From the NCBI RefSeq assembly GCF_000188155.2, contig NZ_KE124774.1, positions 1,680,356-1,744,355 on the forward strand: 64,000 nucleotides of DNA, in the 5' to 3' direction. The notes beneath the pieces are model-generated. The model saw only the letters and a program-made list of their open reading frames with translations, searched no databases and was not told where the DNA came from. This document shows, piece by piece, positions 41,889 through 57,950 of this stretch. Made by a program: the position numbers and the translations under genes. Positions within the stretch are counted from its first letter, which is position 1. Each line of letters opens with the position of its first letter. Source of the stretch: Methylocystis sp. ATCC 49242 (GTDB lineage Bacteria > Pseudomonadota > Alphaproteobacteria > Rhizobiales > Beijerinckiaceae).

Positions 41889-41938
41889 AGTGGCTGGGGG
41901 ACCTGGATTCGAACCAAGATTAACGGAGTCAGAGTCCG
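41889..41938 (-). other. attL: 50-bp copy of the tRNA-Gln 3' end
   Basis: This 50-bp stretch is identical to 57901-57950. It covers the 3' part of tRNA-Gln (anticodon stem to CCA) and diverges immediately outside on both sides. The integrase gene starts 57 bases further in. It marks the left boundary of the integrative element. Confidence 0.92.
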
Positions 41939-41994
41939 GCCGTGATCATTGTTCTATAAGGGTTTTCTCAATCCGCGCCGCGCACGCGCCGCGT

Positions 41995-43185
41995 CTACTC
42001 GCCCTTTCCTAAGATCAAATCCGCAGCTGCCGCCAGTTCGTCCGCGTGATCATGCTGCGGGAAAAGATGGCCATATGTATCCAGCGTGACGCTGATGTTC
42101 GAATGGCCGAGCCGCTCTTGAACGATCTTCGCCGGGAGCGCGAGGCCGCCGTCTTCCTTTCGATTGATCATCCAAGAGGCGCAGAAATGCCGGAGGCTAT
42201 GCAGCCCGGTATATTTCGCCCTGCCCTCCTTCGTGACGACACCGGCGGCGACACAAACGGGCTTTAGCCCACGGTTCACAATGTTCTGATGCAGCTCGAT
42301 CGTCCCCTTCCCCGTAGGAAAGACGAGGTCGCCCGGCGGGCAGGCGACCTTCCATTCGCGCAGGACATTCACCAGGGCACGCGGGATTGGGACAACCCGC
42401 TCGCCGGCGACCGTCTTGGGCGCACCGATCGACTTGTAACGGTCTGCGCGCTGTCTGACGTGGATTTCCCCGCGCGATAGGTCGACGTCACCCCAATGGA
42501 GGCCACGCAACTCGGAGCTGCGCAGGCCGGCGAAAATCGCCGTCATCAGCAATGGCCGCCAGCGTCCTTTCGCGGCCGTCAGAATGGCCCGGATCTCATC
42601 CCGCGTGGGAACGTCCACCCCAACCTTGATCTTGCCGCGCTGGCGCGCCTCCGCCTGCCGCTCGATGCCGGCGTGGCGACGCGCGCGAACGTCGCGGACG
42701 ACGTTTTTCGCGAGCAGGCCCCTTTCCTGGGCGTCGGAGAGCATCGATCCAAGGCTGCGCACGATCCTCTTTATCATCGCCGGCGAGCGGGGCTTGTCGA
42801 ACGGGGCCGAGCCGGCTCGCATCGCGTCTTCGAACGCGCGGACCATCGGCGGCGTTATTGCCGAAAGCCTCGTCGTGCCCATCGCAGGGAGAATATGCAA
42901 CTGAATGTGTTGCTCGTAAGCCTCAACGGTCGTTCGCTCGAGCTGTCGCCCTTCACAGCTCGAGATCCACAAGCGCGCTGCCTCACGCACGGTTATCGTC
43001 GCGCTGTCGGCGACGTGGACCCCTGCCCTAACGTCGACTCGGGCGCTCTCATGCCATCTGACGGCGTCGCCCTTCCGCTTGAAACTCTTCTGCCGCCGCA
43101 CCCCACCGGCGTCGGTATAATCGGCGAGCCAGATTTCATATTCCTCGCCCTTGCGGGTGCGACGAGTGCGCTTGCGGACGCTCAT
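41995..43185 (-). CDS. int: Tyrosine recombinase, integrase of the tRNA-Gln element
   Basis: This is a 396-residue intact integrase. An N-terminal arm-binding domain (DYTDAGGVRRQKSFKRKGDA), a SAM-like core-binding domain (residues about 70-165) and a catalytic domain are all present. Its active-site residues are in GLRSSELRGLHW (Arg), HSLRHFCASW (HxxR), RLGHSNISVTLDTYGHLFP (His and Tyr nucleophile). It would recombine the 50-bp att sequences. Its 3' end faces attL, and it overlaps the upstream regulator gene by 4 bases. Confidence 0.93.
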   Translation of the reverse strand: MSVRKRTRRTRKGEEYEIWLADYTDAGGVRRQKSFKRKGDAVRWHESARVDVRAGVHVADSATITVREAARLWISSCEGRQLERTTVEAYEQHIQLHILPAMGTTRLSAITPPMVRAFEDAMRAGSAPFDKPRSPAMIKRIVRSLGSMLSDAQERGLLAKNVVRDVRARRHAGIERQAEARQRGKIKVGVDVPTRDEIRAILTAAKGRWRPLLMTAIFAGLRSSELRGLHWGDVDLSRGEIHVRQRADRYKSIGAPKTVAGERVVPIPRALVNVLREWKVACPPGDLVFPTGKGTIELHQNIVNRGLKPVCVAAGVVTKEGRAKYTGLHSLRHFCASWMINRKEDGGLALPAKIVQERLGHSNISVTLDTYGHLFPQHDHADELAAAADLILGKGE

Positions 43186-43832
43186 TTTTCAATCTCCGCA
43201 AGCTCTCGTTCAACTTGAGCGACGATCTTCGAGAGATTCATTGTCGAAACGTGACGACTTCCCGAACCTTCCTCCATCGCCAAAATTGGGCCGATCACGT
43301 CCTTTCCGCGAACGCGAATAGCCCACACCTCTTGCAACGGATTGCCGACGTTAACGACCTTGCCCGGTCCCGATATTTCCCCTTGGATTGGGAATGTTGG
43401 CGCTGCGATCTTAAAGTTCTCGGCGCGCATTCCAATCTTTGGTTTCCAAACCGAAGACATGCAATTGAAGACCATAAAAAGGCGGAGGTGTTCGACTTCG
43501 TAAGGCCAGGCGTCCAGATTGCATTCCGCGGTCGTGGGCGACTCCCATTCTTCGCGAAACGCTGGACCTATCTTGCGCTCCCAATAAACATTCACGATGA
43601 CCTGTATTTGCGCGGGCCCTAGGCCCATCTCGAATAGTTCCATGGCGAAAATGAGCGTGTAAATTTCGTTCCGTCCGTAATCCACCCTCCCGCCCTTACC
43701 AGGCTTATCGCCCCGCGGGATTCCGAGCTTTTGCAGATTTTGAACGCGCCCTCGAAGCGCGCCTTTAACGACATCGGGGTTTCCCCAGTAGAGCCGGCTT
43801 AGCAGTTCCATTGTCTGCGAATAGGTCGCCAC
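43182..43832 (-). CDS. Probable element repressor/regulator with MerR-like N-terminal domain
   Basis: This is a 216-residue protein. Residues about 5-75 (GRVQNLQKLGIPRGDKPG, RVDYGRNEIYTLIFAMELFE) resemble the winged HTH of MerR-type proteins; the rest is unassigned. The stop overlaps the int start (ATGA), so both are co-transcribed. It is divergent from the Xis-like and replication genes across a 145-bp region with palindromes, the usual place of a lysogeny-type repressor. Repressor function is inferred from position. Confidence 0.6.
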   Translation of the reverse strand: MATYSQTMELLSRLYWGNPDVVKGALRGRVQNLQKLGIPRGDKPGKGGRVDYGRNEIYTLIFAMELFEMGLGPAQIQVIVNVYWERKIGPAFREEWESPTTAECNLDAWPYEVEHLRLFMVFNCMSSVWKPKIGMRAENFKIAAPTFPIQGEISGPGKVVNVGNPLQEVWAIRVRGKDVIGPILAMEEGSGSRHVSTMNLSKIVAQVERELAEIEK

Positions 43833-43977
43833 GTCGCCAAACTCCTCAAGATCGGCAACGGCGTAACCACAGACTTGTGTTTCGTGTCAATTGCGATTAG
43901 GAAGATCAAAGCATAACCACAATGTTATGTTTCTAGACAATCCTGTCACGGTTTGGCTTTAGTCAAACGGAGGAGCA
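43833..43977. promoter_or_regulatory. Divergent control region of the element
   Basis: This 145-bp AT-rich region lies between the repressor/int operon and the replication operon. It contains CATAAC-cacaat-GTTATG (perfect 6-bp arms, 43912-43929), an 18-bp near-palindrome GTTTGGCTTTAGTCAAAC (43951-43968) just before the ribosome site, and a half-site repeat GCGTAACCACA (43861) / GCATAACCACA (43911). These are candidate operators; exact promoters are not resolved. Confidence 0.6.
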
Positions 43978-44208
43978 ATGAACCAGAGCCCTAATTCGAT
44001 CGCCGACGACCTCCTCGAGGGCGCTGACGAGATTTCCATTTTTCTCTTCGGAGAACACGACGACAAGCGCCGCGTCTATCATCTGATCGCCCGCGGCCAT
44101 CTGCCTAGCTTCAGGATCGGCAAAAAGATTTTCGCGAGAAAATCAGCGCTGCTCAAGCATCTCTCTGATCTCGAGGCGAATGGCACGAAAGGCGGCAAGG
44201 CCGCGTAA
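43978..44208 (+). CDS. Xis/AlpA-like small DNA-binding protein
   Basis: This 76-residue protein has a strong ribosome site (GGAGGAGCAATG). Residues 25-62 (YHLIARGHLPSFRIGKKIFA) match the winged-helix excisionase fold (MerR-like, HTH_17), where a reading helix is followed by the wing RIGKKIFARKSAL. In satellites and prophages such proteins control excision and the early operon. It is the first gene of the plus-strand replication operon. Confidence 0.75.
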   Translation: MNQSPNSIADDLLEGADEISIFLFGEHDDKRRVYHLIARGHLPSFRIGKKIFARKSALLKHLSDLEANGTKGGKAA

Positions 44209-44325
44209 ACGAGAAAGGCCGGATCGGTGGCACGATCCGGCCTTTAACTCTGCCCGCAAGTCTCTGAAAACTTGCGGAATTCCCCCACCTGCTAAAATAG
44301 GGAACGCCTATGCGGCGTATTGGCA

Positions 44326-44586
44326 ATGTCCAACAAAACAACAACCAAGTCAATCCAAAAAATCATCCCATTTCCAAGAATTAAGCCCGAATTTTTGGTG
44401 CTCGACCACCGCGAAAATCCAGACGGCTCGCGAACTTTCTGGCTTGAAACCGACGACGCCGACATGCCGGGGATCGTCGCGCAGTCGCGCGACTACGCCA
44501 AAATTCTGCAAGTCGCGGACGAAATTTTAGCGAAAGGAAACGCTCGCCTTTTCGATCTCTACGCGAGCGGACGCTTGTGCGAATGA
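44326..44586 (+). CDS. Hypothetical protein, 86 residues
   Basis: The ATG at 44326 starts MSNKTTTKSIQKIIPFPRIK; the middle has a beta-rich part (FLVLDHRENPDGSRTFWLET). Its stop overlaps the primase start (ATGA), so it belongs to the replication operon. No family is recognised; it might be a primase accessory protein. Confidence 0.6.
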   Translation: MSNKTTTKSIQKIIPFPRIKPEFLVLDHRENPDGSRTFWLETDDADMPGIVAQSRDYAKILQVADEILAKGNARLFDLYASGRLCE

Positions 44587-45467
44587 CGGCGGCGCAGATC
44601 TCCCGTTCGCTGCGCGGCTTCCCATCCGGCCACGGCTGGCTATGTCGCTGTCCATGCGATGACCACGGAAGGGGGCGCGGCGACCGCGCCCCGTCATTGT
44701 CCATTTGCGACGGCGACTACGGACGCCTGCTCGTCCATTGCTTCGCCGGATGTGAGCCCGTCGAAGTGCTTGACTCTCTGCGCCGGCGCGGCCTGCTCGA
44801 TGACCGACCGGCGAGCCGCAATGAGCCGAAGCCGCGGCGCCCGGCGCCGGAACCGCTGCATGAGCCGGATGAACGCGCGCTGGCGCTGTGGCGCGAGGCT
44901 GTGCCGATCGAAGGGACGCCGGCAGAGCGCTATCTGATAGCGCGCGGCATCCGTTACGCGCCGCCGTCGCTGCGCTACCTGGCCGCTGCGGAATACATGC
45001 GGGGACGGGTTTATTTGCCGGCGATGATGGCCGCCGTGCAGGCGCCCGACCGTCGCCTTGTCGCGTGTCAGCTGACGTTTTTGGACCCGCGCGGCGATCG
45101 AAAGGCGCAGGTCGCGACGCCTCGCCGCACGTATGGCGCGCTCGGCGCTGGCGCCGTGAGGCTCGATCACGTCGACGAAGTGCTCGGGCTCTCCGAGGGC
45201 GTCGAGACGGCTTTGAGCGCGATGGCGCTCTATGGCGTGCCGACCTGGGCTTGCCTCGGAGCCTCGCGAATGAGTCGCGTCGCCATCCCGAAGAATCTGC
45301 GTCATCTGATTGTCTTCGCGGACGCCGACGAGCCAGGCCGCGCCGCTGCTGCGCGAGTCCGCGAGGCGCATCCCGACATTCGCGTATCCGTTCGTTTCCC
45401 AGACGCCCCGCACGGCGATTTTAACGACGTACTGCGCGCCGCCAACAGCGCGGAGGTGGCGGCATGA
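44583..45467 (+). CDS. Zinc-finger/Toprim primase
   Basis: This is a 294-residue protein. The N-terminal zinc ribbon WLCRCPCDDHGRGRGDRAPS plus LLVHCFAGCEPV resembles CHC2-type primase fingers. A middle domain (RYLIARGIRYAPPSLRYLAA) is followed by a Toprim domain with LSEGVETALSAM (Glu), CLGASRM and VFADADEPGRAAA (DxD). This layout occurs in phage and satellite primases (DUF7146/Toprim_3). It would prime replication of the excised element. The ATG at 44583 overlaps the previous stop; a GTG six bases upstream is possible. It overlaps the helicase gene by 4 bases. Confidence 0.85.
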   Translation: MTAAQISRSLRGFPSGHGWLCRCPCDDHGRGRGDRAPSLSICDGDYGRLLVHCFAGCEPVEVLDSLRRRGLLDDRPASRNEPKPRRPAPEPLHEPDERALALWREAVPIEGTPAERYLIARGIRYAPPSLRYLAAAEYMRGRVYLPAMMAAVQAPDRRLVACQLTFLDPRGDRKAQVATPRRTYGALGAGAVRLDHVDEVLGLSEGVETALSAMALYGVPTWACLGASRMSRVAIPKNLRHLIVFADADEPGRAAAARVREAHPDIRVSVRFPDAPHGDFNDVLRAANSAEVAA

Positions 45468-46831
45468 ACGCGCCCGTCAGAAAAATCCGCGTGGCGGACG
45501 AAACCGTAACGATTGGCGGCGTCCTCAAGCGGGTAACGACGTTCGACGATCTCAACACGCGGTATGCGCTACTCCAGCAGGCGGGATCACCAAGCGTCTA
45601 TGTCTCCCGCGAAGATTTCCTTCCGATTCAGGACGGCGATTTGAAGCGCCGCCTTGCCAGCGAAGTCGTCGTTGTAGGCGAAAAGGACGGCAAGCCTATT
45701 TATACGTCGGCGTTCAAATTCTGGACGGAGCACGCGCGGCGCCATGTCTACCGGCGCGCGGCGTTCACAAGCAAGGCAATACCAGATGACACGATCAATC
45801 TTTTCCGCGGGTTTGGCGTCGTCCCAAAGCCCGGCAACTGCGATCGCATCATCTCTCATATTCGCGAGGTGATCTGCTCGGGCAATGAAACCGACGCCGA
45901 CGCGATGCTGAAGCTGCTGGCTTGGCAAATCCAGAACATTGGCGAGCCGTCGCGCATCATCGTCATTCTAAAAAGCGAGCAGCAGCAGGTCGGCAAAGGC
46001 GTCTTGCTCGACGGGGTAATGACGAAAATTTACGGGCAAAGCGGCTTCAGCGCCGCCCAGACTGATCAGATCCTCGGGCGGTTCAATTCCAAGATTCGCG
46101 GCTGCGCCTTCGTCTTTCTCGACGAAGTATTGTTTTCTGGGGATAGGAAAGCCGCAGACGGAATCAAAAGCTTGTCTACGGCGACCGGCACGGGGATTGA
46201 GGAAAAGGGCCTGCCGATCGTTCAATGCCCGGTCGCCCTAAATTTCTGGCTGGCGTCTAATCACGAGAACGCCGCCTTCATCGAGGAGCACGACGCCCGC
46301 TATTGGGCGCTGGAGGTAAGCCCGCATCGCGTCGGCGATGTCGCCTACTTCTCCACCTTGATGGAGGAGATCAATAGCGGCGGCCGCGAAGCCTTCGCGC
46401 ATTACCTGCTCAATCTCGACGTGTCCGGCTTCGTTCCCTTCCGCGATGTTCCCAAGAACAACGCCGTAAAGGACAAAATGATCAGACTGTCGATTAACCC
46501 CTATGACGCACGCAAGTGGCTGGAGGAATGCTGTCATACGGGGCGCTTGATCGGCGCTATGCACCCCGATGAAAACAGATGGATTGAATGGGTCGAGGGC
46601 GAATCCTTTTCGTTCGCGACGCTGAGAGACGCTTACACGGAATGGCAAAAGAGCGTCAGGTCGCCAGTCGCACCGAAGCCGACGCCGATCGGCAATCTTG
46701 GCGAAGTATTTGGAAAAGCCGGGCTCGAACGATCACGCACTAAATCAGATCGGCGCTACGCACTGCCCTGTGTCGAGAGCTGCCTCGCGTCCATCTGGGC
46801 CCGCGATCGCGTTCAATCGGTCAAGCATTGA
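45464..46831 (+). CDS. DUF5906 / D5-like replicative helicase ATPase
   Basis: This is a 455-residue protein. Residues about 160-290 form an SF3-like ATPase: ILKSEQQQVGKGVLLDGVM (P-loop with GKG), FVFLDEVLFSG (Walker B) and ALNFWLASNHENA (sensor). The C-terminal part (residues 340-455) is a winged-helix-like region (WLEECCHTGRL, FATLRDAYTEW). DUF5906 ATPases are the helicase part of P4-alpha- and NrS-1-like replication proteins. With the Toprim primase it forms a two-gene primase-helicase module. No polymerase is present, so a host polymerase would be needed. Confidence 0.85.
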   Translation: MNAPVRKIRVADETVTIGGVLKRVTTFDDLNTRYALLQQAGSPSVYVSREDFLPIQDGDLKRRLASEVVVVGEKDGKPIYTSAFKFWTEHARRHVYRRAAFTSKAIPDDTINLFRGFGVVPKPGNCDRIISHIREVICSGNETDADAMLKLLAWQIQNIGEPSRIIVILKSEQQQVGKGVLLDGVMTKIYGQSGFSAAQTDQILGRFNSKIRGCAFVFLDEVLFSGDRKAADGIKSLSTATGTGIEEKGLPIVQCPVALNFWLASNHENAAFIEEHDARYWALEVSPHRVGDVAYFSTLMEEINSGGREAFAHYLLNLDVSGFVPFRDVPKNNAVKDKMIRLSINPYDARKWLEECCHTGRLIGAMHPDENRWIEWVEGESFSFATLRDAYTEWQKSVRSPVAPKPTPIGNLGEVFGKAGLERSRTKSDRRYALPCVESCLASIWARDRVQSVKH

Positions 46832-46966: not shown

Positions 46967-47503
46967 TCAGGATTTGGTCTGTTGGCTCGCATCGGCTAGA
47001 AGTGCTTTAGATTCATCTTCTTTCGCCTGCCTTATTATTAAGGTGCCAAGCCTTACAACCTCATCTCCTACCGTTGCTCTTACTTTTATTCTGCCTCCGC
47101 TGTTTATAAAAACAGGAGATAGTAGGAATGGCACTGTGATCGAGACCATCGGCACAACATCGTCGCCATTGTGCATAGGCATTGCTTCGTCAATCGGCGT
47201 AGATGCAAATGCGGATCTTGGGATTGTCTTCGATATAGATTGCGGCCTATCTGCGTCACTTGGCATGTGAACAGAAAGTATTACATCAGACGAAAACTTA
47301 GTATCTGCGCGCTCATAATATTTAACTACTATCCCGAGCTTTGGAATAATGAGCGGGAAATTCCCTTCAAATATTAAATCAGAAGCATAAACCCCAATGA
47401 TGCTATACTTGCCATGCAGTTCCTGCCGTATGTCGTCACAAAAAATAGAAAACCCCCAAGCTGGCGGAGTTGGTAGCATCAGAAAGACTCTCTTTTTATG
47501 CAA
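46967..47503 (-). CDS. DUF6941-like protein, third gene of a reverse cassette
   Basis: This 178-residue protein contains AWGFSIFCDDIRQELHGKYS followed by IIGVYASDLIFEG, the hallmark of DUF6941 proteins, which are small beta-rich proteins of unknown role in varied genomes. It has no signal peptide or membrane segment. It overlaps the XRE gene by 25 bases and so is co-translated. Lower GC than the adjacent replication genes suggests a separate origin. Confidence 0.65.
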   Translation of the reverse strand: MHKKRVFLMLPTPPAWGFSIFCDDIRQELHGKYSIIGVYASDLIFEGNFPLIIPKLGIVVKYYERADTKFSSDVILSVHMPSDADRPQSISKTIPRSAFASTPIDEAMPMHNGDDVVPMVSITVPFLLSPVFINSGGRIKVRATVGDEVVRLGTLIIRQAKEDESKALLADASQQTKS

Positions 47504-47955
47504 ACATTTGAAGTTAGGTTTCTTTTTGCGCTTGCCGTAGCTCGATTATAAATGCCGTCAACATGCGGCCAGTTTTCGTTTACGATCAGGATAGCTGGGC
47601 AGAATTTGTGAGCCACCCCGTCTATAAGGTCGGCATATATGTCGTAATTCTCCATGCAGGATTCACGCGGCCTCACCTCAACATGAAGCTCGCCGTCCAT
47701 GGCCTCAACAAGAGCGCCAACGGTCTCCAGGGTCCAATTCCCGGGGCCAGCCAGCGCTCGCGTGATCTGGGAAGGATGGTAGCCGATAGCCTCGGCAAGG
47801 TCCTTTTTCTTCACCCCTTCAAGCTGGCGCTGCTGCCAAAGGCTATCGACCGCATCAAAAATCGCTTCACGCACGCGCGCAAAGCCAAGCGTGCGGCGCT
47901 CTTCTGCCTTATGCTCTGGCGTTAATGTCTCTGACATTTGCGGTGACGTAATCAT
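47479..47955 (-). CDS. XRE-family antitoxin-like regulator
   Basis: This 158-residue protein starts at ATG 47955 with AGGGGA upstream. Residues about 45-105 form a Cro/C1-type HTH (KKKDLAEAIGYHPSQITRAL, then TLETVGALVEAMDGELHVEV), as in HigA-like antitoxins. A C-terminal extension (residues 105-158) is not typical of HigA and may contact the toxin or DUF6941 protein. It overlaps the toxin-like gene by 47 bases and the DUF6941 gene by 25 bases. Confidence 0.7.
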   Translation of the reverse strand: MITSPQMSETLTPEHKAEERRTLGFARVREAIFDAVDSLWQQRQLEGVKKKDLAEAIGYHPSQITRALAGPGNWTLETVGALVEAMDGELHVEVRPRESCMENYDIYADLIDGVAHKFCPAILIVNENWPHVDGIYNRATASAKRNLTSNVCIKRESF

Positions 47956-48442
47956 GAACGGTTTCCCCTGAATGCGGCTCCAAACCAGTGAAATATTTGT
48001 CCCATTCAGCCGCGCATTGCGCCATGGCGTTCCTCCACTCATTGGAAGTCTTGCCACCCAATAGGCGCTTGGTGTTCATTCCTGTGACGATGATGAAGTC
48101 AGGGCGCGCGAACCGGAAGAAGACCCTGACTTGGTTCACAGGTTCCGTTATACGGAATTCCCATATCTCCCCCTCCGCTGGGTCAAGGCGCGCTAAGCTT
48201 GCCCCTGGCTTGGTTCCAGATAGCCGCACACGCATCGGAGCGCCAATAACCCATCTTTCGAGTGCCACCTGAACGTATGGCCTAAGGCCCAATACGTTGA
48301 TTGCAGAGTTCCCGTCGTCGACAGCGCGCTGTGCTAGAGCCGTCAGAAATGCCCCTCTCTTGGCGGCATGCCCTTTTGGAGGCCACACCCTTCGGAGCGC
48401 CCCGGTATCCTCATGCGTCTTCAGATATTGCACGATTGACAT
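47909..48442 (-). CDS. HigB/RelE-like toxin candidate
   Basis: This is a 177-residue protein. The C-terminal half has the RelE/HigB strand pattern: EGEIWEFRITEPVNQVRVFF, RFARPDFIIVTGMNTKRLLG, then a helix EWRNAMAQCAAEWDKYF. HigB toxins are ribosome-linked mRNA interferases, and the toxin-first order with an XRE partner is the higBA order. The N-terminal 70 residues are extra. TTG 48451 or ATG 48442 may be the start; the ATG has AGGA upstream. Toxin activity is inferred. Confidence 0.55.
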   Translation of the reverse strand: MSIVQYLKTHEDTGALRRVWPPKGHAAKRGAFLTALAQRAVDDGNSAINVLGLRPYVQVALERWVIGAPMRVRLSGTKPGASLARLDPAEGEIWEFRITEPVNQVRVFFRFARPDFIIVTGMNTKRLLGGKTSNEWRNAMAQCAAEWDKYFTGLEPHSGETVHDYVTANVRDINARA

Positions 48443-48451
48443 AAAAGTCAA

Positions 48452-48638
48452 TTCCTGGGGCCAAGAGATAGGCTCAAATCATTTCTCAACCCCTAACGTA
48501 TCTGATGCTGATAGGATTGCGTCAATCGGCGGAGCGCTGCCAACAACCCTTCCACTGACGCGACGCAGGATGCGTCAGCGCGGCATTAGCAACCATCAGA
48601 TGTTGCTCGCCATTGCTGACACGGCGACTGCGGCAGAC
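48452..48638. promoter_or_regulatory. Upstream region of the toxin-antitoxin-like operon
   Basis: About 190 bases lie before the toxin-like gene. Its promoter must be here on the minus strand. GACGCGACGCAGGATGCGTC near 48557-48576 contains the short inverted repeat GACGC/GCGTC, which could be an operator for the XRE protein. No gene is seen. Confidence 0.35.
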
Positions 48639-48914
48639 CGGTGACAGGGTGACATCCAGTGACACCCCGATGACGCCCCCATGACGCCCCCGGTGTCACC
48701 TATTAAGATACTGAAAATAAGAAAATAAGTCGCCGAGTGACAGGGGTGACACCCAAAACCGCTCAGTCGGCTCTCACCCACAGATTTTTATACGGTTTTA
48801 TCCATTTACCCTGTCACCCTGTCATCAGAAGATATCGATAAAATAAAAACAACGTGCCAGCGGGTGACACCCCCGTTTCGCCACCCTGTCACCCCCTGTC
48901 ACCCCCTGTCACCA
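48639..48914. repeat. GTGACA/TGTCAC iteron field with AT-rich tracts: candidate replication origin
   Basis: In 276 bp the hexamer GTGACA or TGTCAC occurs at least ten times on both strands, mostly with flanking G/C runs (GGGTGACACCC type). Three copies of CTGTCACCCC are in tandem with exactly 10-bp spacing at 48885-48913. Three AT-rich stretches (about 48702-48729, 48783-48808, 48830-48853) separate the clusters. Iterons next to AT-rich DNA beside primase-helicase genes are the make-up of P4-type satellite and plasmid origins. It is not a CRISPR array: repeats are too short and spacing irregular. Confidence 0.7.
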
Positions 48915-49255
48915 TGAGCTTTAGCGTAACGAGTGAGCCAGACGGGGGGAAATGCCCGCCTCACACTTCCGCCCACGCTACGAAATTTTCCTCGGGTCAC
49001 GACCTTTGCCGTTTGGCCACAAACTTGCAGTCCCGGCTTCCCTTCGTTCGCGGGAAACCAATCGACGCCCGGAAACGCGGTTATAGAGCCCGCCTGATGC
49101 GGTTTCCGTCTCGCGGCTTATAGTGGCTCGGGCATAGGTTAGACGCGCCAGCGGGCTTCTCTGGCAATCCTGCGCGCTGTCTGGTCTGGAGGGTGAAGGC
49201 CGCCCACCGAGGGGCGGGTAGTGGGCGGCCCACCGGTCGGGGCGTCGGTTAGCGG
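48915..49255. other. Non-coding stretch after the iterons
   Basis: About 340 bases with scattered short frames and a hairpin-rich stretch around 49198-49250: GGCCGCCCACC near 49198 partly pairs with GTGGGCGGCC near 49220. No supported gene. It may carry the terS promoter region or packaging sequences. Confidence 0.35.
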
Positions 49256-49788: not shown

Positions 49789-50196
49789 ATGACCAACACA
49801 GCTGAAGCAGGCGGGGCGAAGAGGAAGCGGAAGCAGTTCGGCCGGCACGGGAAGCCGCATCGGATTGACGGGCTGGACCTTCGCACAAGCGCCGGGCGGA
49901 GATATTCGGCCCACTTCCGCGCCCTCGTGGCCGAGTTCGGCGACGCCGATATCCCGCGCCTGAAAGAAGTCGCCGCACATAGGGCGACCCTTGAGCAAAT
50001 GCAGATCGAGGCCCTTGGCCTTGATTACTGGAAGGCCGCAAAGGCCCGAGACGGAATTGTCTCGCTCGCCCGCCTGATCTCCAAGCAGGAAACAGTGTTG
50101 CGCGCAGCGAAAGAGGCGAAGGCCGCCGAGCCGCAGAAGCCGCAGACGCTCGCCGACTTCCTCGCCAATCGCCCAAAGGCGGCCGTAGATGCTTAA
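49789..50196 (+). CDS. Small terminase subunit candidate (TerS-like)
   Basis: This 135-residue basic protein (MTNTAEAGGAKRKRKQFGRH at the start) has a helical middle (HFRALVAEFGDADIPRLKEV, ARLISKQETVLRAAKEAKAA). It overlaps terL by 8 bases. Its position directly before terL, its length and its basic N-terminus fit a small terminase subunit that recognises the pac/cos site, but no clear HTH signature can be shown. Confidence 0.6.
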   Translation: MTNTAEAGGAKRKRKQFGRHGKPHRIDGLDLRTSAGRRYSAHFRALVAEFGDADIPRLKEVAAHRATLEQMQIEALGLDYWKAAKARDGIVSLARLISKQETVLRAAKEAKAAEPQKPQTLADFLANRPKAAVDA

Positions 50197-51068
50197 TATC
50201 GTTGAGGCGATGGATGACCCCGCGCTTTTCGGCCGATGGTTTCCGGGGGCTTCGTGGGATCCGTGGCGCGTCGTTTTGAAGGCGGCTCATGGCTTGCCAA
50301 TGACGGAGGCGGAGGCGGATTTCTTCCGATCCGTGGCTGACCGAGACCCGCCCTCGAGGCGGGCGCGGGAGTTGTGGGCCGTTTGCGGCAGGCGCGCCGG
50401 CAAGGACTCGATTGCCTCTGCGATCGTAACCTGGTCGGCGGCAATGTTCGACGGCGCGGACCGGCTGCGGCCTGGCGAGCGCGCTTTGTGCTTGTGCCTC
50501 GCCTGTGACAAAGACCAGGCGCGGATCGTGCTCTCTTACGTGCGCGCATACTTCGCGGAACTCGAGCCACTGCGCGCGATGGTGACGCGCGAGACGAAGG
50601 ACGGGCTCGAGTTGAGCAACGGCGTAGACATCTACGTCGGCGTAAACGACTTCCGCGCCGTCCGAGGCCGGACCATCCTTTGTGCAGTTCTGGACGAAAT
50701 CGCATACTGGCGCGACGAAAATTCAGCGTCGCCGGACCTCGAGCTTTATCGCGCGCTCAAACCTGGCATGGCGACGCTGCCCGAAGCGATGCTGATCGGC
50801 ATTTCCAGCCCCTACAGGCGCGCTGGGCTGCTACACGCGAAGCATAGGCAAGCCTACGGCCGGGACGGCGACACGCTCGTGATACGCGCCCCCAGCGCCG
50901 TTATGAATCCGACGCTGGACCAGGCCGAGATTGACCAGGCGATGGCTGAAGACCCGGCGGCGGCGCGGGCGGAATGGCTCGCGGAGTTTCGCGACGACAT
51001 CAGCGGGTTTCTCGGTCTGGATCTGATCGAGGCGGCGGTTGACCCGACCATCGTCACCCGGCCGCCTA

Positions 51069-51933
51069 GAGGGTGTTATGCACCTTGGATCATGAAATCT
51101 GCTGCGCGCTTGAGCATGAGACATGCGAAGGCGACGACGTGGAGTCCTGCGAGGGTCTGAGCATAGCGCTCGTAGTCTTTGACGAGCCGCCTGCATCGCG
51201 TCGCCCAGGCGAATGAACGCTCGACCACCCAGCGCTTGGGCAGCAACACGAAGCCCTTCTTCGCTTCGGCAAGTTTGACGACGCACAGTTCGGCGCCTTG
51301 CGCCTTCGCCGCCTCGGACGCCTTTTCGCCGGTGTAGCCCTGATCGACATAAACGAGTTCGACGCTTTCGCCTGTCACATCCTGCACGGCTGCGATGAGC
51401 TTGCCGACCTCGGCGCGGTCATCGACATTCGCCGGCGTGACATGCAACGCCAGCAAATGGCCCAATGTGTCGACTGCCATGTGCAGCTTCGAGCCGCGCT
51501 TTCGCTTCGCGCCGTCATAGCCCGCTCGTGGGCCGCTCTCAGGGGTCGAGCGCAAGGTGCGGCTGTCGATGATCGCCGCCGTCGGCTCCGCCGCCCGCCC
51601 GGAAGCGACGCGCAACTGGGCGCGCAGATCCTGCGCAAGCGCCTCGAACACGCCCGCCGACAGCCAGCGCTGCGATTGCTGATACACGGCGAACCATGGC
51701 GGCAGATCGTTGGGCATGGCGCGCCAGGCGATGCCGTAGCGCAGCACGTAACGCAGGCCGTTGAACAGCTCGCGCAGCGAATGTTGACGCTGCGGCGCGC
51801 CTTCGTCCATGAGCGTCAGATAAGGCGCAACCAGCGACCATTCTTCGTCGCTGACGTCAGACGGATAAGGTTTGCGAATCGGAGACATCCGATTCTACTA
51901 AGACAATCAATCACCAAAGTACATAACACCCTC
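51069..51933 (-). mobile_element. IS-B copy D (IS5 family), in terL
   Basis: This 865-bp copy has GAGGGTGTTATG / CATAACACCCTC ends and TA on both sides in a CTAG target. It lies opposite to terL and is the only IS inside the tRNA-Gln element, so it arrived after the element integrated or came with it. Confidence 0.93.
51076..51888 (-). CDS. IS-B transposase, copy D
   Basis: This is a 270-residue intact IS5-family transposase identical to that of copies B and C, with the DDE motifs AAIIDSRTL, VDQGYTGE and KRWVVERSFAW. Confidence 0.93.
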   Translation of the reverse strand: MSPIRKPYPSDVSDEEWSLVAPYLTLMDEGAPQRQHSLRELFNGLRYVLRYGIAWRAMPNDLPPWFAVYQQSQRWLSAGVFEALAQDLRAQLRVASGRAAEPTAAIIDSRTLRSTPESGPRAGYDGAKRKRGSKLHMAVDTLGHLLALHVTPANVDDRAEVGKLIAAVQDVTGESVELVYVDQGYTGEKASEAAKAQGAELCVVKLAEAKKGFVLLPKRWVVERSFAWATRCRRLVKDYERYAQTLAGLHVVAFACLMLKRAADFMIQGA

Positions 51934-52465: not shown

Positions 52466-52810
52466 ATGACGACATTGGCAGAGCTACTCAACGCCCGCGA
52501 AGTCGCCGGCGCGAGATACGCGGCGGCAGCGGCGGAACTGCAAGCCGCATGGATCGATTTAGCCGCGCTCGACGCGACGCTCCAAAACGGCAACGTGCGC
52601 GGATTGGCCACCCCGCCAACAAATCCTGACGAAACAATGAACGGCGCGCATTTCGGCCAGGGCCCGAGCGACATTCGGACGTTTGGCACGGCTCCGCCAT
52701 CCGCCGGCGCGCTGGCGCACCCCACGTATTTCCCGAATGACGGGATTGACTGGTTTGGGGCGATCAAGGCGGCCACGGCCAACTATCTCGCTTCGTTCAC
52801 CGCCGATTAA
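52466..52810 (+). CDS. Hypothetical phage-type protein, 114 residues
   Basis: The ATG follows AGGAGAACCAC, a good ribosome site, nine bases after the terL stop. The first 45 residues are an Ala-rich helix (LLNAREVAGARYAAAAAELQ), the rest is Pro/Gly-rich. No family is recognised. In intact phages the portal gene is usual here, but this protein is far too small for that. Confidence 0.6.
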   Translation: MTTLAELLNAREVAGARYAAAAAELQAAWIDLAALDATLQNGNVRGLATPPTNPDETMNGAHFGQGPSDIRTFGTAPPSAGALAHPTYFPNDGIDWFGAIKAATANYLASFTAD

Positions 52811-52823: not shown

Positions 52824-53444
52824 ATGAACCCCAAGGCTGAAATGTTTATCGGCAGATTGCCCGCGGGACACCCCGTCGACCTCGCCGACCTTATCCCGAG
52901 TGCATTTGGAGTTGTGGACGGCTTTCGCGAGAAAGCCCGGGCGATTCGGGCTGACCCGACGCTGAGCAAGATCGGCGCGGACGCCGCAGTTGAAAAGGCG
53001 CTGAAGTCGGGCCCGGTCGCGCATCTCTCGCAGATGAAGGCGAGCGTCGACAAGCGGCTTGCTGACGCGGTGAAGCAACGCGGCGTGCTGCGTGATCGTG
53101 TTTTGAAGGCGGAGAATTTCCCCGAGGCGCGCAAGACCGAAGTCAGGACGTGGCTTCGCAGCCTGCCCGAGATTGAGCGCTTAAAGCTCGTCAGCTCGAC
53201 GAATGACCCGCTGATCAGCGAGGCCGTGCTGGGCGCGCCTCACTATCTTTCGGGGCTCCCGCAAGATGTATGGTCGCGCGCGGCTGATGCGGCCGTCGAG
53301 GCGGCCTATTCCGAGCCGCTGGCGCAGATTGCCATGCTCGAGCGTTCCTACTCCGAGGCGCGGGCCGCGCTGCAGGTGGCGGCGGATGACCTGCGCCGGG
53401 AGTCCGGATTCGACACTAAAGATTTCGAAAAACTCGCCGCGTGA
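52824..53444 (+). CDS. Hypothetical phage-type protein, 206 residues
   Basis: It starts at ATG 52824 (GGAG upstream), MNPKAEMFIGRLPAGHPVDL. It is almost entirely helical, with MLERSYSEARAALQVAADDL near the end suggesting a coiled coil. No membrane segment or known motif is seen. Helical composition and position after terL would suit a scaffold- or assembly-type protein, but this is speculation. Confidence 0.6.
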   Translation: MNPKAEMFIGRLPAGHPVDLADLIPSAFGVVDGFREKARAIRADPTLSKIGADAAVEKALKSGPVAHLSQMKASVDKRLADAVKQRGVLRDRVLKAENFPEARKTEVRTWLRSLPEIERLKLVSSTNDPLISEAVLGAPHYLSGLPQDVWSRAADAAVEAAYSEPLAQIAMLERSYSEARAALQVAADDLRRESGFDTKDFEKLAA

Positions 53445-53557: not shown

Positions 53558-53872
53558 GTGACGAGCGCCAAGCAAAAGATGGATCCGCCGTTCACCTCGC
53601 GGGAGTCGAAAGAGGCGCTCGAGCATGTCAAGGCGTTCGTGTTGGCGAATTTGGAGCCGGGCTACATTGATTTGCAGGCGCTGCGCCTGGTCGGGGAGCC
53701 GCGCGACGTGATCAACCGCGATATCGAAGCGCAGCGCATCGGATTTGTTGGCGAGCTGGAGAAGCACGCAGGATTTTCCCGGGCGCGCGTTGTGGCTTTT
53801 GGCGTCGCCTTCGCGAGCCTCATCGCGGATCGTGTTGCCGATCTTGAAACGCACGAAGGAGGCCGGGCGTGA
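53558..53872 (+). CDS. Hypothetical phage-type protein, 104 residues
   Basis: GTG start with GGGAGAGTAAGG upstream. The product is helical (ESKEALEHVKAFVLANLEPG, DLQALRLVGEPRDVINRDIE) and overlaps the next gene by 4 bases. Its place just before a gp10-like gene suggests a head-tail connector-type role, but no motif proves it. Confidence 0.55.
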   Translation: MTSAKQKMDPPFTSRESKEALEHVKAFVLANLEPGYIDLQALRLVGEPRDVINRDIEAQRIGFVGELEKHAGFSRARVVAFGVAFASLIADRVADLETHEGGRA

Positions 53873-54408
53873 AGATTTCGCTTGGCGAGATGGCCGCTCG
53901 GTTGATCACGATGGATCGCGACGTCGGCGCGGCGATGGAAGCCGCCGTCGTGAAGGGCTGCAAAATGATCGAGAGGAAGGCCAAGGCGCAAATTGGCCAT
54001 CTCCAGCCTTTTTGGCCGCCTCTCGCCCAGTCGACGCAGGATGAGCGCGTTCGGCTTGGCTATGCAGCGAATAAGCCGCTGTTGCGCACGGGCGAGCTGA
54101 AGCGGTCGATCCAGATGGCCGCGCCCTATCGCGACGGAAATCGAGTCTTCGGCTACGTCTTCTCGGACAGCGAGATCGCGGTCTATCAGGAGCTCGGAAC
54201 GAAGACGATCCCGCCTCGCTCATTCATCAAGACCGCCGCAGATGGGCAGGCGCACCTTGTCGCGCAAATGGCCGCGAAGATGGTTGTGCACGCCATGGTG
54301 CATGGCGGCAAAGAATACCACCTGTGGAAGCACGTTATGCATTCATTCCACAGGGCCGGCGAGAAGCTGAAAGAGGCGATTCCGGACGACGGCGACGGCG
54401 AAGAGTAA
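53869..54408 (+). CDS. HK97 gp10-like / minor tail-type protein
   Basis: This 179-residue protein has an N-terminal helix with basic residues (CKMIERKAKAQIG). It is followed by LLRTGELKRSIQMAAPYRDG and VYQELGTKTIPPRSFIKTAA, the conserved 'tG.L..Si...' and 'ye.GT..ippRpFl' pattern of HK97 gp10-type neck/tail-completion proteins. It overlaps the preceding gene by 4 bases (ATGA overlap). Confidence 0.7.
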   Translation: MKISLGEMAARLITMDRDVGAAMEAAVVKGCKMIERKAKAQIGHLQPFWPPLAQSTQDERVRLGYAANKPLLRTGELKRSIQMAAPYRDGNRVFGYVFSDSEIAVYQELGTKTIPPRSFIKTAADGQAHLVAQMAAKMVVHAMVHGGKEYHLWKHVMHSFHRAGEKLKEAIPDDGDGEE

Positions 54409-54426
54409 GACAGCGGAGAAAAGTCT

Positions 54427-54858
54427 GTGGCGATCGACACACTCATCCTCGGGCCGGTGACCTTCACGGACTTCTCGCCACCGTCGCACATGCCATTCGG
54501 CGGCCAGCAGGCGATGGTTGTCCACCGCCTGCCGGGCGGCTCGCGCGTCATCGATACGCTCGGGCCCGACGACATGGACATCCGCTGGAACGGCCGGCTG
54601 TGGGGCGACGACGCCTATGCGACGGCCCTGCAGCTCAACGCGCTGCGTCGCGCCGGCCTGCCGCTGCCGCTGATCTTCGGCGGGCAGTTCTACATGGTGC
54701 TGATCTCCGACTTCAGCTGCGAGATCGAGCGCCTGCCGCTCGACTGCCTTTACGAGATCACCTGCGTCGTCACCGACATCAACACCTTCTCGCCCCTGTC
54801 CAGCGCGGCGCTGGCGGCGGCGGACCTTGCCGCGGCGGCCGCCATTGGCAATTCATGA
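54427..54858 (+). CDS. Tail-associated protein, gpU-like
   Basis: GTG start with GGAGA upstream. This 143-residue beta-rich protein (DTLILGPVTFTDFSPPSHMP, then LGPDDMDIRWNGRLWGDDAY and PLPLIFGGQFYMVLISDFSC) has the layout of P2 gpU-type tail-end or baseplate proteins: an antibody-like 'rlG...l.w.G.l.g..a' core and a final 'y.it..v' strand. The tail of the protein is Ala-rich. The family link is by pattern only. Confidence 0.55.
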   Translation: MAIDTLILGPVTFTDFSPPSHMPFGGQQAMVVHRLPGGSRVIDTLGPDDMDIRWNGRLWGDDAYATALQLNALRRAGLPLPLIFGGQFYMVLISDFSCEIERLPLDCLYEITCVVTDINTFSPLSSAALAAADLAAAAAIGNS

Positions 54859-55524: not shown

Positions 55525-55826
55525 CCACAACCGGAAGGATCGACCGCTCCGCGATCATGAAGGACGCCCACAAACGCTTCAGAGACGGGCGCCGCCTCGG
55601 GCTCGATTGGACCTTCGGCCAATGCCTGCGGACGGCCTGGGCGGCGGCGAAGATGCGGCGGGCAGGCGCCGCCCAAGAAATGAAAAACCTCCCGGATTTC
55701 TCCGGGAGGCTTTCTGTAAATCCCGGCGACATCCGTGAGGGGCTGGGGTGTGGCGACAGGATTTACTCGACGGAACTCTCTCACATTCTTCCTGAACGGG
55801 CCATGTCCGCGCCGTTCATCTTCTAG
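55518..55826 (+). CDS. Hypothetical protein, 102 residues
   Basis: It begins MLTTTGRIDRSAIMKDAHKR and continues FRDGRRLGLDWTFGQCLRTA, a compact helical sequence common in small phage/plasmid proteins of Hyphomicrobiales. A hairpin with terminator shape (55688-55709) lies within the second half of the frame, so only the first 55 residues are well supported and the real product may be affected by a changed 3' end. Confidence 0.5.
   Translation: MLTTTGRIDRSAIMKDAHKRFRDGRRLGLDWTFGQCLRTAWAAAKMRRAGAAQEMKNLPDFSGRLSVNPGDIREGLGCGDRIYSTELSHILPERAMSAPFIF
55688..55709 (+). terminator. Terminator-like hairpin
   Basis: CCTCCCGGA and TCCGGGAGG form a perfect 9-bp stem with a 4-base loop, followed by CTTTCTG. 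It is strong in pairing but weak in its T-run. Confidence 0.5.
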
Positions 55827-56302
55827 TCAGGAAAGCCCCGCAGGAGCGCGCCGGGCTGAAGATGGCGGCGTGATCGGCTGGCAGAAAGATTGCATCAGCC
55901 AGCGTAGAAGCTGACGATGCCAATACCCCTCTCGATCGTCAGCGAGGACGGCCCGCCTCCATAGCTCCCAGGCGGGCCGTTTTGCATTTAGGTTCGTCGC
56001 GATCACGAGAGCAGCGGCGCGAGCCATCCTTGTTGGCGACGGGGTGTTTTGCTTTTCTGGAAATGCGTGGACCAATTGTGCAGCCGGATTTTCGCGTCCG
56101 TGGTCTGCGTCAAAACGCCCGCCTTGGCTACGCTTGAATCTGTAAACCCGGTGAAAGAGCATCCCGCCGCCGTCGAGTAGACGCCTCTCCTCTTCGGTAA
56201 GCCCGAGCGTCGATTCGTCCCGGCGCTCGGGCCGATTTTGCGGCATCCATAGTGACAAAATCACAGACTGCGGCCGATACGCGAATTTAAAAAAGAAGCA
56301 TC
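55827..56302. other. Intergenic region with strong bidirectional terminator
   Basis: The 475 bases contain a perfect 11-bp stem at 55948-55980 (ACGGCCCGCCT pairing with AGGCGGGCCGT, then TTT). A minus-strand frame (55827-56264) runs across this hairpin, has no ribosome site and is not accepted. Confidence 0.5.
55948..55984 (+). terminator. Strong stem-loop terminator
   Basis: An 11-bp perfect stem (ACGGCCCGCCT / AGGCGGGCCGT) with an 11-base loop is followed by TTTGC. It ends plus-strand transcription from the 55186-55826 gene pair. Confidence 0.65.
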
Positions 56303-56575
56303 ATGGACACTCAAATTTTCTCGGCTCTGGAGGAATGGGCGCGTCTCGAGTCCATGCACCATGAGGCCAAAATCAAACAAGAAGGCGAAGCCGTAGATTT
56401 GGATCGGTCTATGGTTTCAGCCAAGGAGTTGGAGATCTTAGAAATGCGCCCGCAAACAAAGGCGGGCGCGCTCGTGCAATTGCACTTCTGCGCGACATTC
56501 TTGGAAAGAAATAGCGAAAATGGACATTTAGCCGCGCGCGCGATCCGCGGTGCGACGAGTGTATTTGGTTGGTGA
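56303..56575 (+). CDS. Hypothetical protein, 90 residues
   Basis: It starts MDTQIFSALEEWARLESMHH after an AT-rich leader (AATTTAAAAAAGAAGCATC). It is an acidic helical protein with MRPQTKAGALVQLHFCATFL in the second half. Similar short proteins occur as stand-alone genes in Hyphomicrobiales genomes. No known domain. Confidence 0.6.
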   Translation: MDTQIFSALEEWARLESMHHEAKIKQEGEAVDLDRSMVSAKELEILEMRPQTKAGALVQLHFCATFLERNSENGHLAARAIRGATSVFGW

Positions 56576-56692
56576 GAAACCTCCTAGCCTTGCCTTCTTG
56601 GAATCAGTGGCCTAGCCTCCCATTAAGTCGGCCCGCGGGTCCGATAATTGAACGCCCCGACCGTGGATGTAACGGCGGGGCGTTTTTGCTTT

Positions 56693-56992
56693 TCAACTGA
56701 GCTTCGACGCCAACACGTCCACCCGTTCAATTTCCGGGGGACCATCGAAAAGCTCTGGCGCTCTTGCCATAAGTGCCTTCGCCACTTCGCCGCCCAGATG
56801 CGCGTCCCTGGCCTTTTGGTCTGGAAACACGTCAAATATGGCGAAACTCGTGGGTGTAAAACGCACCGCGAACCACGCGACCGTGCCGGGCTCGGCCTGC
56901 ACGAGCGGCAGCGCCGATTTCAGAAAGGCTGCGACTTCATCCTCTTTTCCCGGCTTTGCCTCCATAGTCGCCAAAATCCCGAAATTGACCAT
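56693..56992 (-). CDS. ABM-fold (YgiN-like) monooxygenase/quinol-type enzyme
   Basis: This 99-residue protein starts at ATG 56992 (MVNFGILATMEAKPGKEDEV). The alternating beta-alpha pattern with PGTVAWFAVRFTPTSFAIFD and DAHLGGEVAKALMARAPELF matches the antibiotic biosynthesis monooxygenase fold, a dimeric ferredoxin-like barrel. Members oxidise small aromatics or act as heme or quinone enzymes; the substrate here is unknown. It is a metabolic 'cargo' gene within the att boundaries. Confidence 0.75.
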   Translation of the reverse strand: MVNFGILATMEAKPGKEDEVAAFLKSALPLVQAEPGTVAWFAVRFTPTSFAIFDVFPDQKARDAHLGGEVAKALMARAPELFDGPPEIERVDVLASKLS

Positions 56993-57079
56993 TGCGACCT
57001 CCTCGAGAAATACGGCCTCCCGCCCCTTAGATTGCCCTGAATTGCCAATTTTCCACGATAGCCGGACGGGCAGTTCGCT

Positions 57080-57463
57080 ATGCCCCGTTACATCAACCCG
57101 ACAACGGACATCGCCATGATGCGCATCCACGGTGCTCGCTCGACGCCAGGCCTGCGCGGCTCTATCGTCCCGGCGATGCAGAAGCGGAACTGGCGCCGGA
57201 CCTCATTCCGCCGGCTCGACGGGACGGTCGACGTCGCGACCGACGACTGGTCGTTGCTCGACGACGCGGGCCGGCCACTGGCGCGCATCTATCTGCAAGA
57301 CGGCGGGCCGCAGGGCGGGCGCTGGGCGTGGTTTGTCCAAGTCGCGCCGGACGGGACGCCCTGGAATGGCGGGACCGGCTATGCGGCGTCAGGGCGCGAG
57401 GCTCGAGAGATAAGCGAGCAGCTTGTCCCGCCTGGCACACAGGAACGCCGAGCGCGGATGTAG
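57080..57463 (+). CDS. Hypothetical protein, 127 residues
   Basis: From ATG 57080 (or the ATG pair at 57116-57121) the frame encodes a beta-rich small domain: RRLDGTVDVATDDWSLLDDA, PLARIYLQDGGPQGGRWAWF, VQVAPDGTPWNGGTGYA. The regular Gly/Trp spacing is typical of small phage or island proteins of unknown role. No membrane segment. Confidence 0.55.
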   Translation: MPRYINPTTDIAMMRIHGARSTPGLRGSIVPAMQKRNWRRTSFRRLDGTVDVATDDWSLLDDAGRPLARIYLQDGGPQGGRWAWFVQVAPDGTPWNGGTGYAASGREAREISEQLVPPGTQERRARM

Positions 57464-57478
57464 CGCCGGGCCATTTTG

Positions 57479-57592
57479 TTATGGCCATACCGCGACCACG
57501 GCGTGAGCGAGACCGACGGCCATATGAGCTGCAAAAGCGGCCGCCGCTGCGAGACAGATAATCTTGAGCAATCCAATGTCGTCCGGGTTCAT
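57479..57592 (-). CDS. Small membrane protein, 37 residues
   Basis: A minus-strand frame from ATG 57592, with AAGGG eight bases upstream, starts MNPDDIGLLKIICLAAAAAF and ends HAVVAVWP. It is a single hydrophobic helix of about 25 residues after a short polar N-terminus. It is too short for standard gene callers. Its place at the edge of the element could suit a holin-like or regulatory peptide, but this is unproven. Confidence 0.4.
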   Translation of the reverse strand: MNPDDIGLLKIICLAAAAAFAAHMAVGLAHAVVAVWP

Positions 57593-57900
57593 CGCCATAA
57601 CCCTTGAGCGGGACCGCATCGCGTAGCCTCAATGCAAGATGCTCCACGAATGCGGCAGGAGCTTCAAGAGAATTCTCAATTTTATGGTTTTCGCTGGATC
57701 AAGACGCCCCGCAACCGGCCCCAGCATCGGGCGGCGGGAATGGGGAGGCGAGGGGCGTTCCCGCGCCGCATCTGCGCCGCGTGGAGCAAACGGCCCCACG
57801 TTGGAAACCGTTGTAAATCAAGGAAATCAGTTGTAGCAGATTGCGGCGCGGAAATGGCCCATTTTGAGGAGGCCGAAAGCCAGAAAGTCTTTTGAAATCA

Positions 57901-57950
57901 AGTGGCTGGGGGACCTGGATTCGAACCAAGATTAACGGAGTCAGAGTCCG
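57901..57950 (-). other. attR: 50-bp repeat inside tRNA-Gln
   Basis: Identical over 50 bp to 41889-41938. It covers the tRNA 3' part up to the anticodon stem, and the gene stays complete because the element carries the same 3' sequence. It marks the right end of the 16-kb element. Confidence 0.92.

Follow-up and report, generated by a model that had tools for sequence, protein, structure and literature searches.

We examined a stretch of 64,000 nucleotides from Methylocystis sp. ATCC 49242 (contig NZ_KE124774.1; G000:C6:1680356-1744355), which is called the window in the following; the genome comprises 4.73 Mb in 6 contigs. At positions 41889-57950 the window contains an element integrated at a tRNA-Gln gene. 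We consider it probable that this element is a phage satellite, and that intact members of its group package their DNA by means of their own small and large terminase subunits (TerS and TerL) and the portal of a helper phage; in the copy studied here, terL is cut by an insertion sequence (IS). The element is small, integrated, bounded by defined att ends and equipped with its own integrase, as is characteristic of phage satellites; like these, it also lacks a complete set of virion genes. The element represents a decayed member of a group of satellites that carry a terminase and lack a portal. It displays the gene order of the group, int - primase/helicase - terS - terL, with a TerL of the same subfamily and no portal. 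The intact terL that also characterizes the group is absent; gene order and homology otherwise place the element among these satellites.

Complete elements of the group lack a detectable portal

Relatives were collected by pattern scans, and the best 80 of 281 stretches from bacterial genome contigs (L123-L202) and the best 80 of 88 stretches from viral contigs (L043-L122) were used. Loci with identical gene lists under two identifiers include L008/L139, L029/L043, L031/L196, L032/L152, L048/L157, L052/L171 and L055/L186. Genes of the relatives were called with a home-made scorer of open reading frames (ORFs), which produced some wrong starts and spurious opposite-strand ORFs.

An element was regarded as complete if direct repeats 5-20 kb apart enclose an integrase of the common cluster and a TerL; the minimum repeat length was 15 bp for repeats that touch a tRNA gene and 18 bp for all others. 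This was the case for 42 of the 172 loci tested, and 41 elements, that of the window among them, remained after L196, the second copy of L031, had been dropped; the near-identical L053 and L054 were both kept. The 41 elements have lengths of 7.8-18.0 kb, with contact to a tRNA gene in 35 cases. The contigs L053, L054 and L149 end in direct terminal repeats of 60, 114 and 51 bp, respectively, which would be expected of circular molecules. All ORFs of at least 80 residues, read from stop to stop in six frames, were searched for a portal with two profiles and three single proteins, and no portal was detected in any of the 41 elements. The capsid profile matched in six elements (L083, L133, L147, L149, L163, L167), and the model of C6cc, a protein encoded behind terL, in 14. 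Tape-measure genes are present in at least nine elements, as deduced from our own models (L034, L037, L142, L157, L163) or from PHROG matches of 1e-13 or better (L129, L134, L136, L186); weaker matches in L031 and L127 were left out of this count. Some satellite-like relatives continue into a tape-measure gene, without a portal.

A second count was made without a size filter and comprised all 80 bacterial genome loci, of which 68 extend 5 kb or more behind terL and one (L198) has no ORF in the TerL cluster. The sole portal match occurred in L169, 8.8 kb upstream of terL, and none was found downstream. The L169 ORF is a real portal relative that lies apart from the terL module. Capsid matches were again found in six loci (L133, L147, L149, L160, L163, L167). 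As a control, the same models were applied to the viral contigs and detected a portal in 37 of the 80 loci. A narrower portal model, combined with the other two, gave 19 of the 80 viral loci and the same single genome match. The first portal scan considered the best match per locus and model, the second all matches for three of the five portal models; the counts rest on these five models, which would overlook a portal family that resembles none of them. The large portal cluster, a product of single linkage, contains shorter ORFs of the head-morphogenesis type besides the portals. Comparison of members of both portal clusters with PHROG, phage records and solved portal structures supported the portal identity of members from L112, L068 and L101 and of the L169 ORF; the member from L113 belongs to the shorter kind. 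Family assignments were further obtained for a batch of 128 proteins of 230 aa or more, from which the clusters of integrase, helicase, TerL, TerS, resolvase and C6cc and the window transposase had been excluded. Only the best 25 of 159 PHROG and the best 25 of 46 Pfam families were considered there, such that a single weak portal match could escape; the portal was therefore searched for with the separate models described above.

A first-pass annotation of this DNA had proposed either a phage satellite or a prophage stripped to this state, and had named as the sign of the latter that the gene set of relatives always continues into portal, capsid and tape-measure genes. This continuation was not found, and the satellite is well supported by the absence of a portal from the 41 complete elements and by the upstream position of the only portal in the 80 genome loci.

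In order to relate portal content to descent, a tree of 151 TerL rows was calculated by means of FastTree. The two parts of the window terL were used separately, both in the tree and in all TerL searches. A total of 28 rows were labelled as portal-bearing (L169 included) and 39 as complete without a portal. The labels require 8 changes on the tree; in 300 shuffles the mean was 21.7 and the lowest value 16. TerL proteins of portal-bearing loci and of complete portal-less elements thus form mostly separate lineages, with several switches between them.

Weighing of alternative explanations

Several points weigh against an interpretation as a satellite. Phages with a related TerL exist, as is evident from the control. 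In the TerL tree, the N-terminal part of the window protein lies near L035 and next to a portal-bearing clade, which speaks for a phage ancestry of the window terL branch. The set of 41 complete elements depends on a 5-20 kb distance filter, and some of the repeats have a length of 15-18 bp. The putative TerS was assigned by its position and by BLAST clustering. The left flank of the window has no match in nine congeneric stretches, and hence no clean empty site was seen. When the genome was searched with PF05065 (capsid) and PF04860 (portal), no complete helper prophage was obvious. Finally, packaging is deduced from knowledge of the families concerned.

One alternative is a prophage that was worn down by deletion until little more than the genes for integrase, replication and terminase and a few tail genes were left. 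The broken terL and the four IS copies in the window would agree with such a history, as would the relationship of the neck-like gene and of the ORF at 54427-54858 to phage phiKX1 (53 kb), for which a tail sheath is annotated; the portals in 37 of the 80 viral loci and the neighborhood of the window TerL N-terminal part to such a clade point in the same direction. We nevertheless regard this origin as improbable: The compact plan with an open terL and att-type repeats recurs in Alphaproteobacteria, Gammaproteobacteria and an acidobacterium, a portal downstream of terL was found in none of the 80 genome loci, and a search of 50,697 phage records with two C6cc members gave no match. Still less probable is an integrative island that uses its terminase genes outside virion packaging, for example for plasmid-like maintenance or in competition with phages. 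The same terS-terL pair does stand beside ParA-family genes on plasmid records (pKNA06 and its relative, pM44601), and a resolvase gene is located shortly upstream of terS in many loci. In 13 diverse TerL members, however, 59 columns are invariant and include residues of what we take to be the ATPase and nuclease motifs; moreover, genes for tape measure, capsid, protease, neck and hub recur beside terL. We give the least credit, and very little of it, to a degraded satellite of the type of the capsid-forming phage-inducible chromosomal islands (cfPICIs), which would once have possessed its own head genes. A capsid gene occurs in 6 of the 41 complete elements, and in a congener the same tRNA-Gln site is occupied by an element whose ORFs include, as judged by eye, portal-like and protease-capsid-like ones. 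Yet the capsid-bearing relatives are still without a detected portal, C6cc is present in 14 of the 41 elements, and the proteins of the window element are unmatched in the stretch of this congener at E 1e-4.

An IS5-family insertion splits terL

According to the first-pass annotation, the element has packaging genes of its own. This holds for the group; in this copy, terL is interrupted by an IS5-family element of 863 bp (51070-51932, minus strand; transposase ORF 51076-51888 with matches to PF01609 and DUF4096) with CTAG on both sides. The 5' part of terL (50189-51069, end approximate, plus strand) encodes the ATPase half and matches PHROG terminase large subunits with 2.6e-17. The 3' part (51933, approximate, to 52456, plus strand) encodes the nuclease half, and its segment 52121-52456 matches with 0.00066. 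Both pieces are in the same reading frame and each separately matches terminase large subunits; the terL reported previously is not whole. Due to this interruption, the window copy is unlikely to produce a working large terminase, and self-packaging by its own terminase is probably not possible. The N-terminal part of the protein is closest to L035 (61.7% identity) and the C-terminal part to L008 (55.5%); for the latter part, L035 reaches 46.9% and ranks 62 places below the top. This is a hint of domain mosaicism between the ATPase and the nuclease parts.

Scoring of the best 40 of 182 candidates gave 40 long IS copies with 99% identity or more, the copy in terL included, such that the genome contains at least 40. 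The IS underwent a recent burst in this genome, and the insertion into terL is therefore recent. Recombination between two IS copies was considered as the origin of the split gene and rejected; the same frame across the IS fits a simple insertion. The CTAG flanks cannot separate recombination from insertion, as 18 of the 24 IS instances listed (the four window copies being listed twice) carry CTAG on both sides.

The same IS is present four times in the window (6739-7601, 13683-14545, 20852-21714 and 51070-51932). Pieces of a second integrase adjoin an IS copy at 5799-6723, with 54.5% identity to the integrase of L162 (231 aa) and 47% to that of the window element (91 aa); they are probably the remains of another element.

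A variable slot behind terL

The genes that follow terL differ between the relatives. The slot is occupied by a capsid gene (L147, L149, L160, L167), by genes for a protease and a capsid protein (L163), by a DUF2213 head-maturation protease (L146, L202, pKNA06) or by C6cc; in some loci a tape measure, a neck protein or a baseplate hub comes next. In 19 of 22 listed ORFs (three of which are duplicates by identifier), the start of C6cc lies in a range from 87 bp upstream to 260 bp downstream of the terL end. Outliers are L037 with 365 bp, L045 with 1.5 kb, where C6cc lies behind a portal ORF, and the window with 0.37 kb after the 3' part of terL. The window member has 206 residues (52824-53444, plus strand). 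For C6cc an all-helical fold was predicted by AlphaFold2 from 14 sequences, with a mean pLDDT of 93.2. No informative match was obtained for it, and the two members tried, one of them from the window, had no match in the 50,697 phage records. Given its position, one may guess at a scaffold-, adaptor- or portal-facing role. Between terL and C6cc lies an ORF of 114 aa (52466-52810, plus strand) with tblastn relatives in eight loci, two of these being one genome found twice or thrice.

Boundaries of the element and its integration site

The element is bounded by direct repeats at 41889-41938 and 57901-57950 that are identical in 50 of 50 bases and not one base longer on either side. The repeat on the integrase side is a partial copy of the 3' part of tRNA-Gln, and the other one overlaps the intact target gene, a tRNA-Gln (CTG) at 57903-57976 on the minus strand, which was identified by ARAGORN in agreement with Rfam. 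This whole gene is the sole tRNA gene that ARAGORN found in the window. The 50-bp perfect repeats of the tRNA-Gln 3' end, which had been proposed as boundaries, are thus confirmed.

A 1.4-kb query comprising tRNA-Gln and ppx matches somewhere in 38 of 39 genomes of the genus and over its full length in seven, the own genome being included in both numbers; in some further genomes its two pieces are far apart. In the nine congeneric stretches, the att core occurs once in seven (adjoining ppx in five), twice in L253, and is absent from L259. The L253 stretch contains at the same tRNA-Gln site a different element of 10.4 kb (L253:1538-12014). Its ORFs, all assigned by eye without a family search, include helicase-like, portal-like and protease-capsid-like ones as well as a separate integrase-like one; none of the window element proteins matched this stretch at E 1e-4. 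Two further congeners contain lone 53-bp partial copies of the tRNA-Gln 3' end away from ppx (L260:9708-9759 and L261:9584-9635), which are possibly att scars of other elements.

Gene content of the element

Adjacent to the left repeat, a tyrosine integrase of 396 aa is encoded at 41995-43185 (minus strand). It is intact, as previously noted: PF00589 matches with 1.6e-21 over positions 4-171 of 172, and a PHROG integrase with 1.8e-69. A divergent pair of a repressor-like and an Xis-like gene had also been described. The Xis/AlpA-type small protein (43978-44208, plus strand) is supported by phrog_18541 (3.4e-16) and by HTH_17 (PF12728, 7.9e-05, below the Pfam cut-off), whereas its partner, an ORF of 216 aa that overlaps the start of int (43182-43832, minus strand), has no family match; this putative regulator clusters with a 220-aa ORF of L011. 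The replication genes agree with the first-pass annotation, as both families were matched: a Toprim primase (44577-45467, plus strand; DUF7146 and Toprim_3, PF13362; PHROG DNA primase 2.6e-44) is followed by a DUF5906 replicative helicase (45464-46831, plus strand; PF19263 1.8e-14). Helicase relatives with 71% identity occur in genome G171 and with 56-63% in G103.

Two genes on the minus strand follow, namely an ORF of 178 aa at 46967-47503, cargo or regulator of unknown function (phrog_31406, 1.6e-08, likewise of unknown function), and a Cro/C1-type HTH protein at 47479-48057 (PF01381 1.7e-05). The iteron field noticed in the first pass is located at 48640-48916. Its repeats TGTCAC/GTGACA have 11 starts within the 350 bp of 48600-48950, compared to 0.19 expected from the window-wide rate of 34 starts in 64 kb, and the field is likely the replication origin. 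The TerS-like ORF of 135 aa (49789-50196, plus strand) stands directly before terL. Its earlier assignment is supported by membership in the BLAST cluster of the family terS; at E 0.1 it has neither a Pfam nor a PHROG match.

Behind C6cc, an HK97-gp10-like neck or tail-completion protein is encoded at 53869-54408 (plus strand; PF04883 7.3e-06; PHROG neck1 4.3e-11) with a relative in phage phiKX1. The next ORF (54427-54858, plus strand; phrog_21362 4.6e-28) is related to the N-terminal part of a longer hypothetical protein of phiKX1. The few tail-type genes that had been suggested hence reduce to one neck-like gene and a relative of a phage protein of unknown function. Small ORFs without known function follow as far as the tRNA gene; one of them matches an ABM monooxygenase. 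No portal, capsid or tape measure was matched in the element, neither by Pfam and PHROG searches with 29 ORFs of the region (IS transposase included) nor by our own models. A comparison of ten window proteins with PADLOC gave weak HTH matches and nothing else. Elsewhere in the window, a near-identical direct repeat of about 2.7 kb is present at 16621-19279 and 24977-27635.

Distribution of relatives

The group is thinly spread. Within the family, 3 of 298 genomes have close helicase relatives (E 1e-40 or better), the open TerL of L008 matches in 10 of 397 genomes of the order at 1e-20, and a TerL profile matches in 3 of 385 genomes of the class at 1e-60, each time including the own genome. Hosts among the genome loci include Mesorhizobium, Methylobacterium, Methylosinus, Methylocystis, Brevundimonas, Halomonas, Thiomicrospira, Nitrospira and Acidobacteria. 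Relatives with an open terL are represented, for example, by L142 from Methylosinus sp. Ce-a6 and by L008/L139 from Rhodoblastus sphagnicola DSM 16996. Among the phage records, the L008 TerL found five matches, each with 26.2% identity or less; the gammaproteobacterial L160 found 18 and the alphaproteobacterial-type L029 three, all below 30%. Five matches to the L008 TerL were obtained in 72,556 plasmid records, two each from Komagataeibacter nataicola and Methylobacterium with 48% and one from Roseomonas with 37% over a third of the query. The Komagataeibacter plasmid records (L039 and L040, the latter being pKNA06) contain the resolvase-terS-terL-DUF2213 set twice, as in a dimer of a unit of about 15 kb. 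In single cases, relatives carry phage-defence-type domains (SMODS, AbiC, AbiJ, HSDR).

Comparison with known systems

The first-pass annotation had likened the element to P4-like satellites and phage-inducible chromosomal islands (PICIs). This likeness holds for the general plan; the portal and capsid genes of cfPICIs are not there. P4 is characterized by integration at a tRNA gene, a primase-helicase, an iteron-like origin and an HTH/AlpA-type regulator, and a classical Gram-negative PICI by int, AlpA and primase-rep without TerL. P4-like satellites are not known to carry a terminase gene, nor is TerL known from the classical P4/PICI set. The window element shares the named features with P4-like satellites and differs by its terS- and terL-type genes and by having separate genes for primase and helicase; from the classical PICI it differs by its TerL-type gene. 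P4 DNA is described as being packaged by the terminase of P2 (PMC10690885). According to the same source, cfPICIs encode portal, protease, major capsid protein, connectors and their own small and large terminase subunits. They resemble the group as integrated satellites with their own TerS and TerL; in the window element both genes are present, terL being broken by the IS. In contrast to cfPICIs, the window element has no portal or capsid match, and of the 41 complete elements none has a detected portal and six have a capsid gene.

AH14b is a packaged satellite of 16.8 kb that was found in helper heads (PMC4936722). As in the window element, an integrase and an AlpA-like regulator are reported for it, and the gene for a short Toprim primase of 293 aa adjoins a distinct helicase-like gene; in contrast to the terminase-type genes seen here, its authors found no terminase. 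Group 8 of a cryoconite (glacier) virome from 2015 consists of small circular scaffolds that were called putative satellite phages (PMC4490671). Its member ML_43_3791 (15,770 bp) is listed with ParB, terminase, resolvase, phage tail, prim-pol and P4-type integrase; judged by this gene list alone, a circle of about 16 kb has the plan of our resolvase- and tape-measure-bearing members. The scaffolds (Bioproject PRJNA283341) were obtained from a virus fraction after 0.2-um filtration and DNase treatment; according to the authors, this fraction contained non-viral DNA as well. This unnamed Group 8 is the nearest described relative found, and in the account given there it is neither named as a family nor compared across genomes. 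The plasmids pKNA06 and pM44601 (Methylobacterium) resemble the group in their terS-terL pair, with a TerL of 48% identity to the L008 query, and in a DUF2213 protease or C6cc-type ORF after terL; they differ in being recorded as plasmids. A review names P4-like satellites, PICI, cfPICI, PLE, PICMI, VEIMEs, tycheposons, a soil group and the plasmid pDolos (PMC11389934). As described in the sources at hand, known satellites either borrow the terminase of the helper, contribute TerS or a different factor that redirects packaging, or supply a complete head. In the literature searched, which excluded most subscription papers, no description of terminase-bearing portal-less satellites as a family was found.

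Proposed life cycle and search for a helper prophage

From what is known of the protein families, we infer the following course for excision, replication, use of a helper, docking, packaging and assembly. The integrase would insert the element into the 3' part of tRNA-Gln and leave the gene whole, and the Xis-like protein would aid excision. Once induced by a helper phage, the element would be replicated by means of the primase, the DUF5906 helicase and the iteron field. In intact members, the own TerS-TerL would then dock on the helper portal and fill helper heads with satellite DNA, while one or two further assembly proteins (C6cc, protease, capsid, neck, tape measure) may bias helper assembly towards the satellite. 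The window copy would probably move only with a terminase supplied in trans.

PF05065 and PF04860 each match at two places in the genome, in a cluster resembling a gene-transfer agent and in a cluster of about 10 kb; other ORFs of these clusters were assigned by BLAST to our own clusters or by eye. The former cluster (L267/L268; G000:C6 about 1658-1671 kb, left of the window) contains a portal with a stop in its frame, a protease-like ORF, a capsid and an ORF of 1291 aa. It presumably represents a gene-transfer agent, judging from its gene order. That the element is a piece of such an agent was considered and rejected; the cluster is separate, at a distance of about 10 kb from the left end of the window. 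The other cluster (L269:9266-19077; G000:C6 about 2.52-2.53 Mb) comprises capsid, protease-like, portal and integrase-like ORFs and a long ORF that by eye is maybe a tape measure. No terminase was noticed in it, which makes it the complement of the set found in the window.

Implications

The window copy itself is of lesser weight, being a member that was inactivated recently in a genome rich in IS copies. For the group as a whole it is conceivable, although we would stop short of calling it likely, that it forms a cross-phylum satellite family with a private terminase core and a swappable assembly factor behind terL, which almost never is a portal. The satellite would then contribute the motor and one dominant assembly part, and the portal would be what it always has to steal from the helper. 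The swappable factor would be a capsid protein, a prohead protease, C6cc, a neck protein, a tape measure or a hub; where it is a tape measure, the satellite would determine the length or identity of the tail besides packaging. A class of satellites with a terminase and no portal would imply that the compatibility of motor and portal, and not DNA recognition alone, is a handle for piracy. A TerL of this subfamily together with C6cc offers a marker for finding satellites in Alphaproteobacteria.

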